NCBI GenBank assembly: GCA_018396695.1
Contig: JAGTQU010000011.1
Span: 9,916 to 53,181, forward strand
DNA from: Candidatus Bathyarchaeota archaeon
GTDB taxonomy: Archaea; Thermoproteota; Bathyarchaeia; TCS64
DNA length: 43,266 nt
Reading direction: 5' to 3'
Shown in pieces: positions 13,758 to 23,109 of this stretch (position 1 is the stretch's first letter; each line of letters begins with the position of its first letter). A program made the translations under genes and the position numbers. Under the pieces are notes generated by a model. It saw nothing but the letters and a program-made list of their open reading frames with translations, had not been told where the DNA came from and searched no databases.

Positions 13758-14915
13758 TTAAAGCGCTTTAAAGTTTTCATACCATTTCTCGTATGAAGCC
13801 ACCATCTCTTTGGAGACGCTCGGCCGACGCACTCTCAGAATATTGAGGAAGTCATTCATGCTAACAGATCTTGGTTGGGAATTCTGATCGTAGGCTAAGC
13901 CAGATTCGAATAGTTCTCTGATGACGTTTAAACGTACTGACTGGCATATGTCTCGTATATCGCTTCCAGAGAATCCTTCAGTTATGCTTGCAAGCTCCCT
14001 GTAATCCACGTCTCTTGAGAGTTCCATTTTTGTCGTATATAGTTTGAATATCTCGAGGCGGGTCTCGAAGTCAGGCAAGGGAACCATTATCCTCTTCTGG
14101 AACCTCCTGATGAAAGCCCAATCCAGGTCCCAAGGCTTGTTTGTTGCAGCTATTACGTAAAGGTGATAGTTTTTACCCTTATCCATGATACCATCCATCT
14201 CCTTCAAAAATTGGTTACGCATCCTGACCTCTCCTCCAACCTCTTGGTCATGTGTGCCAAACAAGGAGTCAACCTCGTCGATGAATATTATGGATGGACG
14301 CTTCTCACAAGCTTTCCTAGCCTCAGCGAATAGTCTCGCTACATTTTGCTCAGCGACCCCGAGCCATTTAGACATTATGGAGGCCGCGTCAACCATTACG
14401 AAGTCGGCTTCGATCTCTGTGGCTACGGCTGCAGCTAACAGCGTCTTACCGCAACCAGGGGGACCGAAAAGCAAGATCCCTCTCGGCCAGCCAAGGGGAA
14501 ATAGATCGGGTCTTTTTACGGGGAAGACTATGGCTTCCTTAATTGCGATCTTCGCATCGTTTAACCCTGCGACCTCATCCCATTTTATATTAGGTTTATC
14601 AGGGTTCGGCTTCTCTTCAGAATCCTCTTTTTGCTCTTCATGCGTTCGAATTATTTTTTCTTCATGGATTGAGCTTTCCATATAACCTTCTTGGAGCAGT
14701 TTGACTCGTTCCTTGTAAGTCATAACTCTTTCGATGTAGACTCTATTCAACCCGTAATCAGGGTATAGTTTAACAAGTTTCGATAGGGCATCTATGGCTT
14801 TTTTATAATACTCTGCAGCTTTATCTGTCTCACCCATCTGGTCTAGGCGCACGGCTTCGGCCGCATATTGCATAGCCATTTGCTCAAGTTGTTGAGATAC
14901 ACTCAAACCATACAT
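13758..14915 (-). CDS. cdvC: Vps4-like AAA ATPase (CdvC)
   Basis: ESCRT disassembly ATPase that remodels ESCRT-III polymers during archaeal division. An N-terminal MIT domain (about 1-75, three helices with MAMQYAAEAVRLDQMG and AAEYYKKAIDAL) binds ESCRT-III tails. A charged linker precedes the AAA core. The core contains Walker A GPPGCGKT (151-158), pore loop MSKWLG (181-186), Walker B IIFIDEVDS (209-217), sensor AATN, and the arginine pair RR at about 270. A ribosome site GGAGG lies five bases before the ATG, inside the end of cdvB, so the two are coupled. The length and order match CdvC of crenarchaea and thaumarchaea. Confidence 0.93.
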   Translation of the reverse strand: MYGLSVSQQLEQMAMQYAAEAVRLDQMGETDKAAEYYKKAIDALSKLVKLYPDYGLNRVYIERVMTYKERVKLLQEGYMESSIHEEKIIRTHEEQKEDSEEKPNPDKPNIKWDEVAGLNDAKIAIKEAIVFPVKRPDLFPLGWPRGILLFGPPGCGKTLLAAAVATEIEADFVMVDAASIMSKWLGVAEQNVARLFAEARKACEKRPSIIFIDEVDSLFGTHDQEVGGEVRMRNQFLKEMDGIMDKGKNYHLYVIAATNKPWDLDWAFIRRFQKRIMVPLPDFETRLEIFKLYTTKMELSRDVDYRELASITEGFSGSDIRDICQSVRLNVIRELFESGLAYDQNSQPRSVSMNDFLNILRVRRPSVSKEMVASYEKWYENFKAL

Positions 14916-15661
14916 TCCTCCAGTTTAGCCTTGGTTTTCGCATGTAATTCCTCTGTAACTTGCAGAAAATCATCGATGACTACATTAGGACTATTAGTTT
15001 GAGAGATTACGACAGGCTTGAAGCTTTCCTTTCTGATCCCGGCTTCATGGCTTACAGGTATTGCTTCGGCAACTATCTTCTGAGTTGATACTTTCGAGGG
15101 GACGTTAATCGGGATCGAAGGCGGAACCGGGAGATTGTCAACAATCATCTTCTCTAACTGTTCAGATACTTCTTTAAGTATCACCTCTCCACTCTCACTT
15201 GAAGAGTTATAAAGCGACTCTAAGGCTGGTTGGCTGAAGTCAACCTTGGTCTCCATCAGCGTATCGCTGACAAGGCAGTTTAACTGCTGTACCTCCGAAG
15301 CTATGCCTGGCATAACTCTAGAAACGTCTCCTGAAACGCTCTGGATCATCTTAGATACAGGTTTAAGCTCGCTGATTAGACTATGAAGCTCAATGAAGCT
15401 TTCAAGCCTAATGAGAACACATTCAATGGCAAGCTGGCTTTGGGTTATCGTTTTTATCAGCTCCCTAATCTTGGCTATCTCATTTGCATACATCTGCGCT
15501 CGGAGTTTATCGGTTTTCCTTACAGCTTCCTCACACATTTTAAAGAGGGTTCTATCTCTATTTTTTAATTTGAATATTATCTGTTCTAACTTCGCGCTTT
15601 GGATCCTTAGCTCCCCTATTTTTTCAGAGTTGAAGGATTCTTGGGCGTTTATCTCTTCCAT
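14903..15661 (-). CDS. cdvB: ESCRT-III-like protein (CdvB family)
   Basis: Snf7-type ESCRT-III subunit expected to polymerise on membrane at division. The N-terminal two thirds is a helical, charged core (LRIQSAKLEQIIFKLKNRDR, then the long basic helix with AQMYANEIAKIRELIKT). A Pro-rich stretch LPVPPSIPINVP resembles the MIM2 motif that binds the MIT domain of Vps4. The C-terminal tail is short and I see no winged-helix domain of the kind that binds CdvA. The frame opens at 15694, but the ATG at 15661 has GAGGTGG eight bases upstream and is the likelier start. A minus-strand T-run and TATA-like tract near 15757-15768 separate it from the upstream paralogue, so it may have its own promoter. 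Confidence 0.88.
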   Translation of the reverse strand: MEEINAQESFNSEKIGELRIQSAKLEQIIFKLKNRDRTLFKMCEEAVRKTDKLRAQMYANEIAKIRELIKTITQSQLAIECVLIRLESFIELHSLISELKPVSKMIQSVSGDVSRVMPGIASEVQQLNCLVSDTLMETKVDFSQPALESLYNSSSESGEVILKEVSEQLEKMIVDNLPVPPSIPINVPSKVSTQKIVAEAIPVSHEAGIRKESFKPVVISQTNSPNVVIDDFLQVTEELHAKTKAKLEECMV

Positions 15662-15809
15662 AGATGCCACCTCTTGAAAATTAGTTTTGAGCAAAAGATC
15701 TAGATGTACAGATGAATCCTAATTCATTCAAATCGTCTCCAAGCGAAGTTGAATTGAATTTAAAAAAGGAGGTAAAGATGTAGAGGCAACTCATGGCTGC
15801 TGCCTCCTT

Positions 15810-18942: not shown

Positions 18943-19233
18943 ATGAGGCTTCTTTTGGACGAGATGTTTGCGGGTTTGAAAGAGCATCTCGAGATCTTCG
19001 GATGGGAGGTGCAGACTGCTCAAGAGGCTGGATTAAAAGGATCAAAGGACAAGGATATTGTTGAGTACGCTAGAAAGCAAGATTTGGTATTGATAACTCA
19101 AGATCAGAAATCCTCTGAATTAGCTGAACTGAAGGGAGTTAAGTTTGTCTACGTTTCGAGATCAATGATTGCGAAAATAGCCGACTCCGAGATCAGGAAA
19201 AAATACCAGAAAGAAGCATTCACAGGTTACTAG
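18943..19233 (+). CDS. DUF5615/Mut7-C-like PIN-fold protein
   Basis: Small PIN-like domain protein. MRLLLDEMFAGL at the start and LVLITQDQK in the middle carry the Asp/Glu pattern (D6, E7, D54 region) of the DUF5615 nuclease-like family; AGLKGSKDKDIVEYARKQD is the typical helix between them. 96 residues is slightly short for the family. DUF5615 proteins are often toxins of toxin-antitoxin pairs with DUF433 or similar antitoxins, but no antitoxin gene is adjacent. Lying 28 bases after the methylthiotransferase, it may be co-transcribed with it and act on tRNA or rRNA. That role is inference. Confidence 0.75.
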   Translation: MRLLLDEMFAGLKEHLEIFGWEVQTAQEAGLKGSKDKDIVEYARKQDLVLITQDQKSSELAELKGVKFVYVSRSMIAKIADSEIRKKYQKEAFTGY

Positions 19234-19391: not shown

Positions 19392-21245
19392 TCAAACTTT
19401 CTCGATCTTTCTTAGATATTTCTCTATCTCCTCCTCAGCATTATCCGCGGTTATGAAGATCGGCACATTCTCCATTCCTGTAGCTATGTAACTGGAGACT
19501 AGCCACTCTCCTGGAATGAATTCCAGAGTCTTCTCCAATATAGACTTGTCTATCATGAAAGTATTGCTTATCAACCCTCTATCATAAGGGCGTGGAAGGG
19601 TTGAGATGAAGTATGTGTGAAGCTGCTGAAGTGCATTCGTGTTCAAGTAGGCTATCCGCTGAGTTGCAACACATCCTCCTAATCCGTATTTCCTTCCCTG
19701 TCTAAGGAGGCGCTCAACTTCTTCGCTACAGGTCTTATCGATCCCTTTCAAATTGCTTGGAGCGGAAACGAATTCTTGAGCCTCGTCGAAGACGAATAAG
19801 ACATAGGGTTTCACGGTAAACTCTCTTTTACGGTTGATTAATATATTATGCGTTAGATCGATCACCGCCTGCTTTAGAGTCGTAGGCTCGCTTATGGAGA
19901 AGCAGATGAGCCTGTAACCCGCCTTTACAGCATTCTCAACATCTTCAATCGAGATCCCGCTTCTCTTTCGTTCAGAGATTTTGAAATAGTCCCTCATCTT
20001 GATGCGAGAGTTGAACCATCCGTAGAGAGCGCTCTTCTCATGTATTTTATACTCTTCAACGATCCTACCAGCGTCCGATATGATTTCTTCAACTAGATCC
20101 TCAGTCAGAGGGTCTTCTTCCCTTAGACCATTCTCCTCCATATAGCTTAGAACTGTTTCCTCTATGACTCGAAGAGCCTCAACGTAATTCGGGTTCCTCA
20201 TGTTTTCATTTTTCAGAGTCTCGACATCATTTAAAAACTCGGAAAATTGAGGAGTCTGGAGCCTGCTTCTTCGGAGAAAGGAGACTCTGTTGAGGGAAAA
20301 GATCTTCCTAAACCCTTCCCTGACTCTTCCATCGTCCTCATATTTTCTAGGCTTGACGACGGAGTTGTTGAATTCATCCTCGTTTTTTATCTCGTTCTCG
20401 AAGATAATCATGGATGAAATCTCAGGGTCCGAGAACACGTCCATGAGAAGGAAAGGATACTCGCAGCTAATGTCAAATATTATAATTTTAACATCCTCAT
20501 TGTGGAGGAGTAGACGGCGTAGAATATTTGAAAGCAGATTACTCTTTCCACCGCCAGTGAACGCGAATATGCCGAAATGATATCGAACCAGTGTATCAAA
20601 GTCTATGTAGAATGGGATTTTGTGTCCTATAGCCTCGAACATTTTTATCGTTCCTAGCCGTGGATCTATCCTAGCATCAGAGCATGTTTTACCCTGTTTG
20701 AACCCTATGCGTTCCAGAACCCTCTGGTTATACATCTTCATTATGAGCTCATGATTCAGGATATAGACGCGGCTTCCAACAATCGGATAAGAGAAACCCT
20801 TCACAAACCTCAGATTAGACTCTTCAAAATAGATATCGTAATTGACCGGAATACATGAGAGCTGGATCATCATCGTCGTTTTGTCATCAGTATCCCAATC
20901 TTCAACAGACTGTTCGATAACCTCAAACTGAATAGGATAGTACTGATAATCCCTAACAGCTGAAAGGCCGAAGTGAACTGGCCAGAATCTGATGACTTCT
21001 AGAAGCGTGTAACATTGAAAGTCTGGTTTAGATTTGAAGTTGCTTACAGCTAGAAGCATTCCATCATCCAACATTCTCAAAAGCGTTCTATCGTATCTCG
21101 CCTTGACTGTGCAGAGGTATGGCGAGGAAGTCCCTAGGCTCTCATCAACCGCCATCGGTGTTAATGAGACTCGTCCAAGTTTAGCGTCGAAGATCCCATC
21201 AAAATCTGTGAAAAATTCTTTAAGATGCTTTTCTACTCTGCTCAA
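19392..21245 (-). CDS. HerA/FtsK-type ATPase (DUF87)
   Basis: Hexameric DNA-pumping ATPase of the HerA family. N-terminal beta-barrel-like region (about 1-215), then the RecA core with P-loop FAFTGGGKSN near residue 230; the first P-loop Gly is Ala here. Walker B with acidic partner is VLFVFDEAQEF (about 484-494). Next come RLLRQGRKYGLGG with the arginine finger region and ATQR (sensor). Between P-loop and Walker B lies a large helical insert (about 285-430). HerA works with NurA in end resection, and the NurA-type gene directly upstream overlaps this one. The TTG start at 21245 has GGAGGAGCG before it, inside the end of the nuclease gene, so the two proteins are translationally coupled and probably form one complex. 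Confidence 0.85.
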   Translation of the reverse strand: MSRVEKHLKEFFTDFDGIFDAKLGRVSLTPMAVDESLGTSSPYLCTVKARYDRTLLRMLDDGMLLAVSNFKSKPDFQCYTLLEVIRFWPVHFGLSAVRDYQYYPIQFEVIEQSVEDWDTDDKTTMMIQLSCIPVNYDIYFEESNLRFVKGFSYPIVGSRVYILNHELIMKMYNQRVLERIGFKQGKTCSDARIDPRLGTIKMFEAIGHKIPFYIDFDTLVRYHFGIFAFTGGGKSNLLSNILRRLLLHNEDVKIIIFDISCEYPFLLMDVFSDPEISSMIIFENEIKNEDEFNNSVVKPRKYEDDGRVREGFRKIFSLNRVSFLRRSRLQTPQFSEFLNDVETLKNENMRNPNYVEALRVIEETVLSYMEENGLREEDPLTEDLVEEIISDAGRIVEEYKIHEKSALYGWFNSRIKMRDYFKISERKRSGISIEDVENAVKAGYRLICFSISEPTTLKQAVIDLTHNILINRKREFTVKPYVLFVFDEAQEFVSAPSNLKGIDKTCSEEVERLLRQGRKYGLGGCVATQRIAYLNTNALQQLHTYFISTLPRPYDRGLISNTFMIDKSILEKTLEFIPGEWLVSSYIATGMENVPIFITADNAEEEIEKYLRKIEKV

Positions 21246-23109
21246 GTTCGCTCCTCCTGTCTCTAAAGGTGCTCATGTAGAAGAGATGTCGTCTAAGATT
21301 GCGGTTATTTGAGATCCAGACTCTGCTGGAGTCGATGATCCTGCGCATCTCCTCGCAATTCCACTTCGCTATCTTGTCAGCTATGAAGAGGGGCATATTA
21401 TGGCCGAAAACCTCAGGGATGCTCGACTTCGACATCTCTTTCAGCATCAGCATTATGAGAGTCTGTATCCTATTCTCTATATATCGGTGGCGATAAAGGA
21501 TGACTTCAACGGGCTCCTCAGCACTCCCATATTGATGTAGAAACTTCATTACAGTATCTGGTCTTAAATCAAATTCAGGGTATACGAGTCTATCTATGAA
21601 CAGCACATTACTCCTCAGTTGAGGATCGGTGGAAGCCTCCGCGAGCTGGATATAGCTTTTCAGAAAGAGCTTCTCATATATTATCCGGTTTCTCACAGCG
21701 CCGCTTACATATCCTTTCCTTCGTTTATCGAGTTCAGGGATTATCATTCTAAAAGCCGAGTCGTATTCGATCAGTGACCATGGAACTTTGAGACTCTCGT
21801 GATTCAAAGAGCTAAGATATTGAAGAAGAATCCTATCTGTGTTCGGTGCTTTCTCAAGGTGATTTAAAGATGAAGGAGGATCCCAAACATCCTCATTTAT
21901 ACAAACCGGTATGAGGTGATTCTTGAAGTCTCGAGCAGTTGTATCCTTAGTGATCCCTATGAGCATAATTCTATGCGTCCAGCACTCTTCAATCAATGCG
22001 TTTATGGAGAAGAGTGTCAAAAACGCGAGGTCTAGGCTTGTCAACCATTTGGTTTCCTCGCTAATCTCCACCTGCATCGGGTTATTACCCGCCGGCTCTT
22101 CGAATATTTGCCTCCCTAAATATTCGACTGCTTTCTTAACACGGTTCCAAGAATTACGATATCTTGAAGAAACCCTGTACTGATCATCTTCTCTCTCAAG
22201 AAAGCCTTCAGACACAGATTTCTCTAAAAGACTTGAAGCCCTTCTCTTCCTCTCAACGGTGTCTATGCCAAGTTCTCGGAATATGTCTTCAAGGCTTAAG
22301 GGACCTTTCTCCTCAACTTTGTAAGCAAGAGCATAGCGGAGATAATCCCCCCTCGGAGAAGGTATTCCGAGATCCTTGTTTATAATCCTGTGACGGTTAT
22401 ATAAGAGATCGACTTCATCGATCTCTTCCCCGCCGATTTTTAACCCGATCAAGGCAGAGGAGCGCCAAATCTTCCTCCTTCTAGTGTCATATATGAGACT
22501 ACTCACCATGGTGAGTAGGCTTCTATCCACGAAAATTATGCGTGGAGGATTCTCAGAGGACGCAAGTTTATAGGCTAGGTAGAACTCGCTAAAAGTCATT
22601 ATCCAGTTCGCAATCTCGGAGTTATTTACGATCGCCTCGTCATCAAGTATTTTATCCGCTGTTAAGCTTCTACCCTCCCCTGTCTCCAGATATCTCTCGT
22701 CGACTTCAACTATTTGATTAACATACATCGGTATGCATGAGGAGACTCCAATTCCTTTATCCATCAGCCTGTCTAAGTAATCTACTTTAGGCGGATCATA
22801 GCTGAAATCAACTGTACCTCTAGCAGCATAGGCTCCTCCGAAAAACACGACTATGTCGAATATTTTGTTAGTATACTCTGTTCCGTCGATGGCGGCGAAA
22901 GAGACTTTGGAAGATCCGAAGAACCTTTCCGCCGCGCTGAGAGCCTCTTCGTGGCTGAAAGAAGTTCTTATGAGGCGTATCAGAAACTCGCCGAAAAAAT
23001 CTTTGAGCGGCTTCAGCCTAGTGGAGTAATCAGACACCTGATTTGAGATCCCTTTTAGGAGAACTTTTCCCGCATTCTTTATCTGGCGGTTGAGAGGGTT
23101 TGCACTCAT
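21220..23109 (-). CDS. Large NurA-type nuclease with inserted winged-helix segment
   Basis: Nuclease of the NurA family, expected to degrade DNA 5'-3' together with HerA. Metal-binding acidic motifs: FAAIDGTEY (D75) and RIIFVDRSLLTM (D195). Later family segments are also visible: HRIMLIGITKDT (about 379-390), and WSLIEYDSAFRM (about 444-455). At 629 residues it is nearly twice the usual NurA length. The extra part, about 255-345, looks like a winged helix (RYALAYKVEEKGPLSLEDIF, then ASSLLEKSVSEGFLER). The gene precedes herA with a 26-base overlap. No mre11 or rad50 is in the window. It may be a repair pair or a defence-type variant; I cannot decide from sequence. Confidence 0.78.
   Translation of the reverse strand: MSANPLNRQIKNAGKVLLKGISNQVSDYSTRLKPLKDFFGEFLIRLIRTSFSHEEALSAAERFFGSSKVSFAAIDGTEYTNKIFDIVVFFGGAYAARGTVDFSYDPPKVDYLDRLMDKGIGVSSCIPMYVNQIVEVDERYLETGEGRSLTADKILDDEAIVNNSEIANWIMTFSEFYLAYKLASSENPPRIIFVDRSLLTMVSSLIYDTRRRKIWRSSALIGLKIGGEEIDEVDLLYNRHRIINKDLGIPSPRGDYLRYALAYKVEEKGPLSLEDIFRELGIDTVERKRRASSLLEKSVSEGFLEREDDQYRVSSRYRNSWNRVKKAVEYLGRQIFEEPAGNNPMQVEISEETKWLTSLDLAFLTLFSINALIEECWTHRIMLIGITKDTTARDFKNHLIPVCINEDVWDPPSSLNHLEKAPNTDRILLQYLSSLNHESLKVPWSLIEYDSAFRMIIPELDKRRKGYVSGAVRNRIIYEKLFLKSYIQLAEASTDPQLRSNVLFIDRLVYPEFDLRPDTVMKFLHQYGSAEEPVEVILYRHRYIENRIQTLIMLMLKEMSKSSIPEVFGHNMPLFIADKIAKWNCEEMRRIIDSSRVWISNNRNLRRHLFYMSTFRDRRSELEQSRKAS

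Follow-up and report, generated by a model that had tools for sequence, protein, structure and literature searches.

What is a HerA–NurA pair doing when it lies away from mre11–rad50 and its nuclease greatly exceeds the classic length? The question is raised by a 43,266-nucleotide stretch of a Candidatus Bathyarchaeota archaeon genome (GenBank assembly GCA_018396695.1, contig JAGTQU010000011.1, positions 9,916 to 53,181 of the forward strand; hereafter, the window), located within C70, one of the 91 contigs of a 1.9 Mb archaeal assembly. The minus strand of the window carries a gene for a long NurA-fold nuclease (21220..23109, 629 residues, ATG start) and, downstream of it, a gene for a HerA-type hexameric translocase (19392..21245, 617 residues, TTG start); the features of both genes given below are on the same strand. 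HerA–NurA is usually regarded as one repair machine per genome. Two further HerA–NurA pairs were found in this genome, on contigs C87 (HerA of 504 residues, NurA of 355 residues) and C89 (HerA of 525 residues, NurA of up to 431 residues), so the window pair is a third, additional one.

The long nuclease and its insert

Structure predictions made for both proteins of the pair indicate a NurA fold with a winged-helix insert and a HerA fold, respectively. The AlphaFold2 model of the nuclease, built from 50 homologues, has a mean predicted local distance difference test score (pLDDT) of 89.4 and a predicted template-modelling (pTM) score of 0.90, and the RNase H-like NurA fold is present in this model; its ten best Foldseek matches in the Protein Data Bank are NurA structures only, including those from Pyrococcus (3taz, 3tal, 3tai), Sulfolobus (2ygk) and Thermococcus (9x1l–9x1n), with E-values from 3.0e-7 to 3.5e-6 and TM scores by target of 0.64 or less. 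The Pfam NurA model gave the window nuclease 18.7 bits, which is slightly under the 21-bit cut-off, and at E ≤ 0.1 it matched 7 of 14 members of the long-nuclease family (best E 4.1e-8). Since the whole-protein profile comparison between the long nuclease and ordinary NurAs is weak, the homology rests on the fold, the motifs and a compact intermediate, from a presumed Sulfolobaceae genome, described below.

Three acidic catalytic residues, Asp75 of motif I (AIDGT, 22885..22887), Glu175 of motif II (22585..22587) and Asp195 of motif III (VDRSL, 22525..22527), are invariant in the 50 homologues; the K388–D389 motif (GITKDT, 21943..21948), which aligns with the VKR/SKDS motif of ordinary NurAs and contains the residue that putatively matches the catalytic Lys in Sulfolobus NurA, is invariant as well. 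In Sulfolobus islandicus NurA, residues D58, E116, D133 and K202 were reported to be critical for activity (PMC4351679), and D75, E175, D195 and K388 correspond to them by order and sequence context. The C-terminal motif FGHNxPLFIADKIAK (21364..21408) is conserved and aligns to the compact Sulfolobaceae NurA. The first-pass annotation of the window, made from the sequence alone, had described the nuclease as about twice as long as classic NurA; this is correct for classic NurA, but relative to the two other NurAs of the same genome the factor is 1.5–1.8.

An insert of about residues 200–375 (21985..22512) follows motif III and precedes the lysine motif, so that D195 and K388 are 193 residues apart versus 44 and 48 residues in the two other NurAs of the genome; the ordinary NurAs compared lack this insert. 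The winged-helix-like insert suggested by the first-pass annotation is predicted with high confidence by AlphaFold2 and Foldseek (residues about 254–313, 22171..22350, pLDDT mostly above 90), and its place is between D195 and K388. Foldseek matches of this part are of the MarR/OhrR/MecI type, and profile matches of the Lrp/SloR type are weak. Conservation is lower in the winged helix than in the nuclease core, and the winged helix is not consistently basic (net charge +1.5 as the family mean and −3 in the window protein); therefore, sequence-specific DNA binding by it is unsupported, and a role at an interface or in gating is as likely as DNA binding. As modelled, what is structurally new in the long nuclease is chiefly this winged helix.

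The ATPase and the coupling of the two genes

The ATPase is a member of the HerA family, as judged by its central domain (Pfam DUF87, 58.7 bits versus a cut-off of 23.2), the predicted HerA fold (AlphaFold2 pLDDT 89.1; Foldseek matches 8xav, 9x1l and 4d2i, E 1e-19 to 4e-20) and intact Walker A (AFTGGGKS, 20541..20564) and Walker B (LFVFDEA, 19779..19799) motifs, in which GKS and D487–E488 are invariant among 42 homologues. Two features that had been pointed out as peculiar are present, but both are normal for HerA in archaea: ordinary archaeal HerAs often carry Ala where the P-loop would have its first Gly, the repair HerA of Sulfolobaceae (AATGSGKS) among them, and the large stretch of helices that separates the P-loop strand from Walker B (19806..20444 in the predicted secondary structure) corresponds to the HerA helical-bundle domain. 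Membership of the repair-HerA equivalogs NCBIfam NF040819 and NF040937 was rejected, the scores (41.1 and 37.3 bits) being far under the cut-offs of 970 and 800 bits. The best PADLOC model for the window HerA is the defence HerA "Type III coevolved" (E 7e-41), which also matches ordinary HerAs; the two other HerAs of the genome have their top score on a different PADLOC model.

The tight coupling of the genes reported in the first-pass annotation was seen in full: the genes share 26 bases, the herA TTG lies within the nuclease gene, and a Shine–Dalgarno sequence for herA, AGGAGG (21253..21258), 7 bases ahead of the TTG, falls within the nuclease codons for an FRDRR motif. This arrangement recurs in several Bathyarchaeal and Thorarchaeotal relatives. 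Overlap lengths recur among the 79 pairs scored in related loci (29 bases in 39 pairs, 26 in 11 and 23 in 9), and thus the overlap is not by chance. Wherever a related locus extends far enough to contain it, HerA lies downstream of the nuclease; the one exception is L121, which has a broken nuclease copy. The nuclease and HerA trees are closely congruent (r = 0.97, Mantel 0/2000). The overlap is lost in L125 and L130. In L121 (7818–9974), the nuclease copy is truncated and has no HerA, and in L179 (4458–6183) the nuclease is split into two frames, which would be due either to a pseudogene or to a sequencing error.

Paralogues, relatives and neighbours

The position of the pair away from mre11–rad50 was confirmed, since neither gene was found within the window, Mre11–Rad50 being encoded on contig C73; the pairs on C87 and C89 are also apart from Mre11–Rad50. 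All of the long-pair genomes checked hold another HerA as well.

A scan of the contigs of named genomes with a single sequence found zero relatives, and an alignment-based scan revealed 157 loci, the best 80 of which belong to Bathyarchaeota, Jordarchaeia, Thorarchaeota, Borrarchaeum, Freyarchaeota, Nitrososphaerales and Wolframiiraptor; relatives bearing names are Bathyarchaeota for the most part. The long nuclease was found in 102 of the 257 genomes of its class and in 89 of the 398 sampled genomes of the phylum, where about 20 of the matches are short, mostly C-terminal ones to smaller NurAs. The distribution, proposed earlier as a means to tell defence (patchy) from repair (universal), has both traits: the long pair is near-universal in some lineages, such as family f19 (20 genomes), and absent from most relatives, only 4 of 27 genomes of the same family as the window being positive, three of these with a distant form. 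In the HerA tree, which is unrooted and contains several outgroup sequences with long branches, a branch with support of 100/99 separates the long-pair HerAs from the other archaeal HerAs. The long pair is an old lineage, mostly unannotated, spread across two large archaeal groups. The idea of a distinct module, put forward in the first-pass annotation, stands, considering the two additional pairs of the genome, the absence from most relatives and the lack of the insert in ordinary NurAs.

Jordarchaeial (Asgard) HerAs are grouped with the window HerA. In loci L125, L130, L152 and L153, Jordarchaeial and Freyarchaeotal HerAs join the window HerA type and their nucleases are less close to that of the window, which hints at partner exchange or cross-phylum transfer. 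Bathyarchaeal-type pairs were also found in L102, labelled Desulfobacterales (71% identity), and L124, labelled "bacterium" (52% identity); these are probably misbinned archaeal contigs.

Two further types of loci extend the family. Locus L200 (7469–9930), presumed to belong to Sulfolobaceae, encodes a compact NurA of 243 residues, the gene of which overlaps that of a 582-residue HerA falling in the long-pair HerA group. This NurA is over the Pfam NurA cut-off and lacks the insert, and its C-terminus is similar to the long nuclease family (probability 97%, E 8.1e-11); the same genome also has a repair HerA with 861 bits, above the Thermoproteota repair-HerA equivalog cut-off. In L195 (2088–9158), a cytosine-5 DNA methyltransferase gene precedes the long pair, which is followed by another methyltransferase gene and then by one for a type II restriction enzyme, and in L040 (840–6456) a cytosine-5 DNA methyltransferase and an HhH-GPD glycosylase stand directly ahead of the long pair. 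This divergent branch, represented by two loci only, from unrelated genomes, is probably a restriction-like HerA–NurA defence subtype, and is regarded here as a candidate.

Across related loci, only the nuclease and herA are kept together, other neighbours being conserved just within lineages. Housekeeping genes adjoin the pair, including those for POR subunits, ribosomal protein S7 and proteins that we take, from their sequences, to be GatDE and RFC. Genes flanking the pair exist in relatives and are non-adjacent there, which left no empty site to be read. The window also encodes a CdvC/Vps4-like MIT-AAA ATPase and an Snf7/ESCRT-III-like protein of cell division (13758–15694), about 4 kb away from the pair; no linkage of cell-division genes to the pair was seen in related loci. 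A small DUF5615/PIN-like protein of the Mut7-C type (18943–19233), possibly a toxin-like RNase, is encoded convergently with herA.

Mechanism, rival readings and known systems

By analogy with the solved Thermococcus HerA–NurA complexes (PMC12977600), and given the conserved folds and residues, HerA should deliver DNA to the nuclease. We infer that a hexameric HerA ring would translocate double-stranded DNA, using ATP, into a docked NurA dimer, which would cut both delivered strands at the metal-dependent D-E-D-K site. Co-translation from the overlapping genes may keep the two subunits together, and the winged helix, which probably lies close to the route of the DNA or between subunits, might gate access or dock a partner. 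In the cell, the complex would act as a second, lineage-specific machine for the processing or degradation of DNA ends, additional to the other pairs of the genome.

On balance, we lean towards the view that the pair is an accessory, chromosomally stable HerA–NurA paralogue degrading DNA ends, likely for chromosomal maintenance. Since the housekeeping contexts are stable and the presence is lineage-wide, we rate genome maintenance somewhat above defence for the branch of the window. Several observations weigh against it: an essential repair system would not be expected to be missing from many sister lineages, as this pair is, the placement of the Jordarchaeial HerAs suggests transfer across phyla, the divergent branch L195/L040 stands in a restriction–modification setting, and the agreement of the nuclease and HerA trees would also result from plain joint inheritance. 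A defence role, raised in the first-pass annotation, is possible, yet not favoured for the window branch. In such an anti-virus or anti-plasmid system, HerA would feed invading DNA ends to the nuclease, and foreign DNA or a product of the phage would be sensed by the winged helix or by the N-terminal domain of HerA, on the pattern of SIR2-HerA, DUF4297-HerA and TdpAB. An anti-phage HerA leads the HerA fold matches, the best PADLOC model is that of a defence HerA, unlike for the two other HerAs of the genome, the distribution is patchy, and the sister branch adjoins 5-methylcytosine (m5C) methyltransferases; a study of T. kodakarensis argued for degradation of both strands by HerA–NurA and for a possible defence role (PMC12977600). 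On the other hand, no methyltransferase is present beside the window pair, synteny is stable within families, and about a dozen at most of 149 neighbours in 50 loci matched PADLOC models at 1e-15, several of them generic, this being a raw count without a matched control. A linkage to clustered regularly interspaced short palindromic repeats (CRISPR) was rejected, Cas1 being no commoner in genomes with the pair (36 of 102) than in those without it (44 of 155; Fisher p = 0.27, genomes counted as independent). Searches of viral contigs, phages and plasmids, where archaeal elements are thinly sampled, found no relative, and neither did a search of viral folds.

A combination of both roles, where the winged helix serves as a sensor and the lineage forms a separate DNA-degradation machine that turned into a restriction–modification-like immune system in the branch linked to cytosine DNA methyltransferases, and elsewhere keeps watch as a nuclease over DNA that is broken or lacks protection, seems rather unlikely. 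It is quite improbable that the pair is the ordinary double-strand-break resection HerA–NurA of the organism, diverged and enlarged. The folds and catalytic residues are alike, and in some genera, g7 for example, the long pair is present and a C89-type NurA is absent, but the genome of the window retains two normal-size pairs, the window HerA scores far under the repair-HerA cut-offs (41 and 37 bits versus 970 and 800), other long-pair genomes keep another HerA, and the presumed Sulfolobaceae genome possesses both a repair HerA (861 bits) and a separate member of the window-HerA lineage. Participation in DNA uptake or exchange, in which the pair would generate single strands, or break them down, on behalf of an import system, is very doubtful: HerA–NurA has been proposed to work with Ced/Ted pili (PMC9905601) and the window HerA shows a weak match to the CedD model (E 1.4e-8), but its score is 34 bits versus a cut-off of 600, the match is common to all HerAs tested, and the scan of the window neighbours recognised neither pilus nor Ced genes.

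It is currently disputed if HerA–NurA acts in end resection or in the destruction of DNA (PMC12977600). The coupled paralogue lineage of Bathyarchaeia, other Thermoproteota and Asgard archaea is missed or weakly matched by standard family models, so that counts of HerA–NurA genes and claims about their function pool three lineages or more. In Sulfolobaceae, where genetics is feasible, a relative apparently exists, which makes the role testable.

The window pair shares with the archaeal repair HerA–NurA of Sulfolobus, Pyrococcus and Thermococcus the NurA fold, the D/E/D/K residues, the C-terminal PLxxAD motif, the HerA fold and the adjacent coupled genes. It differs in the insert of about 145 residues with the winged helix, in the nuclease length of 600–640 residues, in the separate well-supported group of its HerA, in the lack of an mre11–rad50 operon and in its occurrence beside other pairs. 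The compact L200 pair has the same HerA group, the DR[SK]L and ITKD motifs and the C-terminal motif, whereas its 243-residue nuclease wholly lacks the insert. The m5C-methyltransferase-linked L195 and L040 have the same order, a long nuclease followed by HerA, and form a sister branch in the HerA tree, but they differ in sequence (about 26% identity for L040), in the cytosine methyltransferase setting and, for L195, in the type II restriction enzyme. TdpAB, SIR2-HerA and DUF4297-HerA likewise combine a HerA motor of similar fold with a nuclease or effector partner, and the window nuclease weakly matches a TdpAB chain (Foldseek E 0.048); these systems are bacterial, reside in defence loci and have partners of other folds or much diverged ones. 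An extra HerA–NurA paralogue pair in multi-pair genomes, likened to the window pair by arrangement, is known as nurA-csm6-herA of Pyrobaculum, which is CRISPR-associated and has csm6 between the two genes (PMC3396285); that arrangement was not seen in the loci sampled. Thus, what is known is the HerA–NurA machine, and what is new is an enlarged accessory paralogue lineage with a predicted winged helix in its nuclease.

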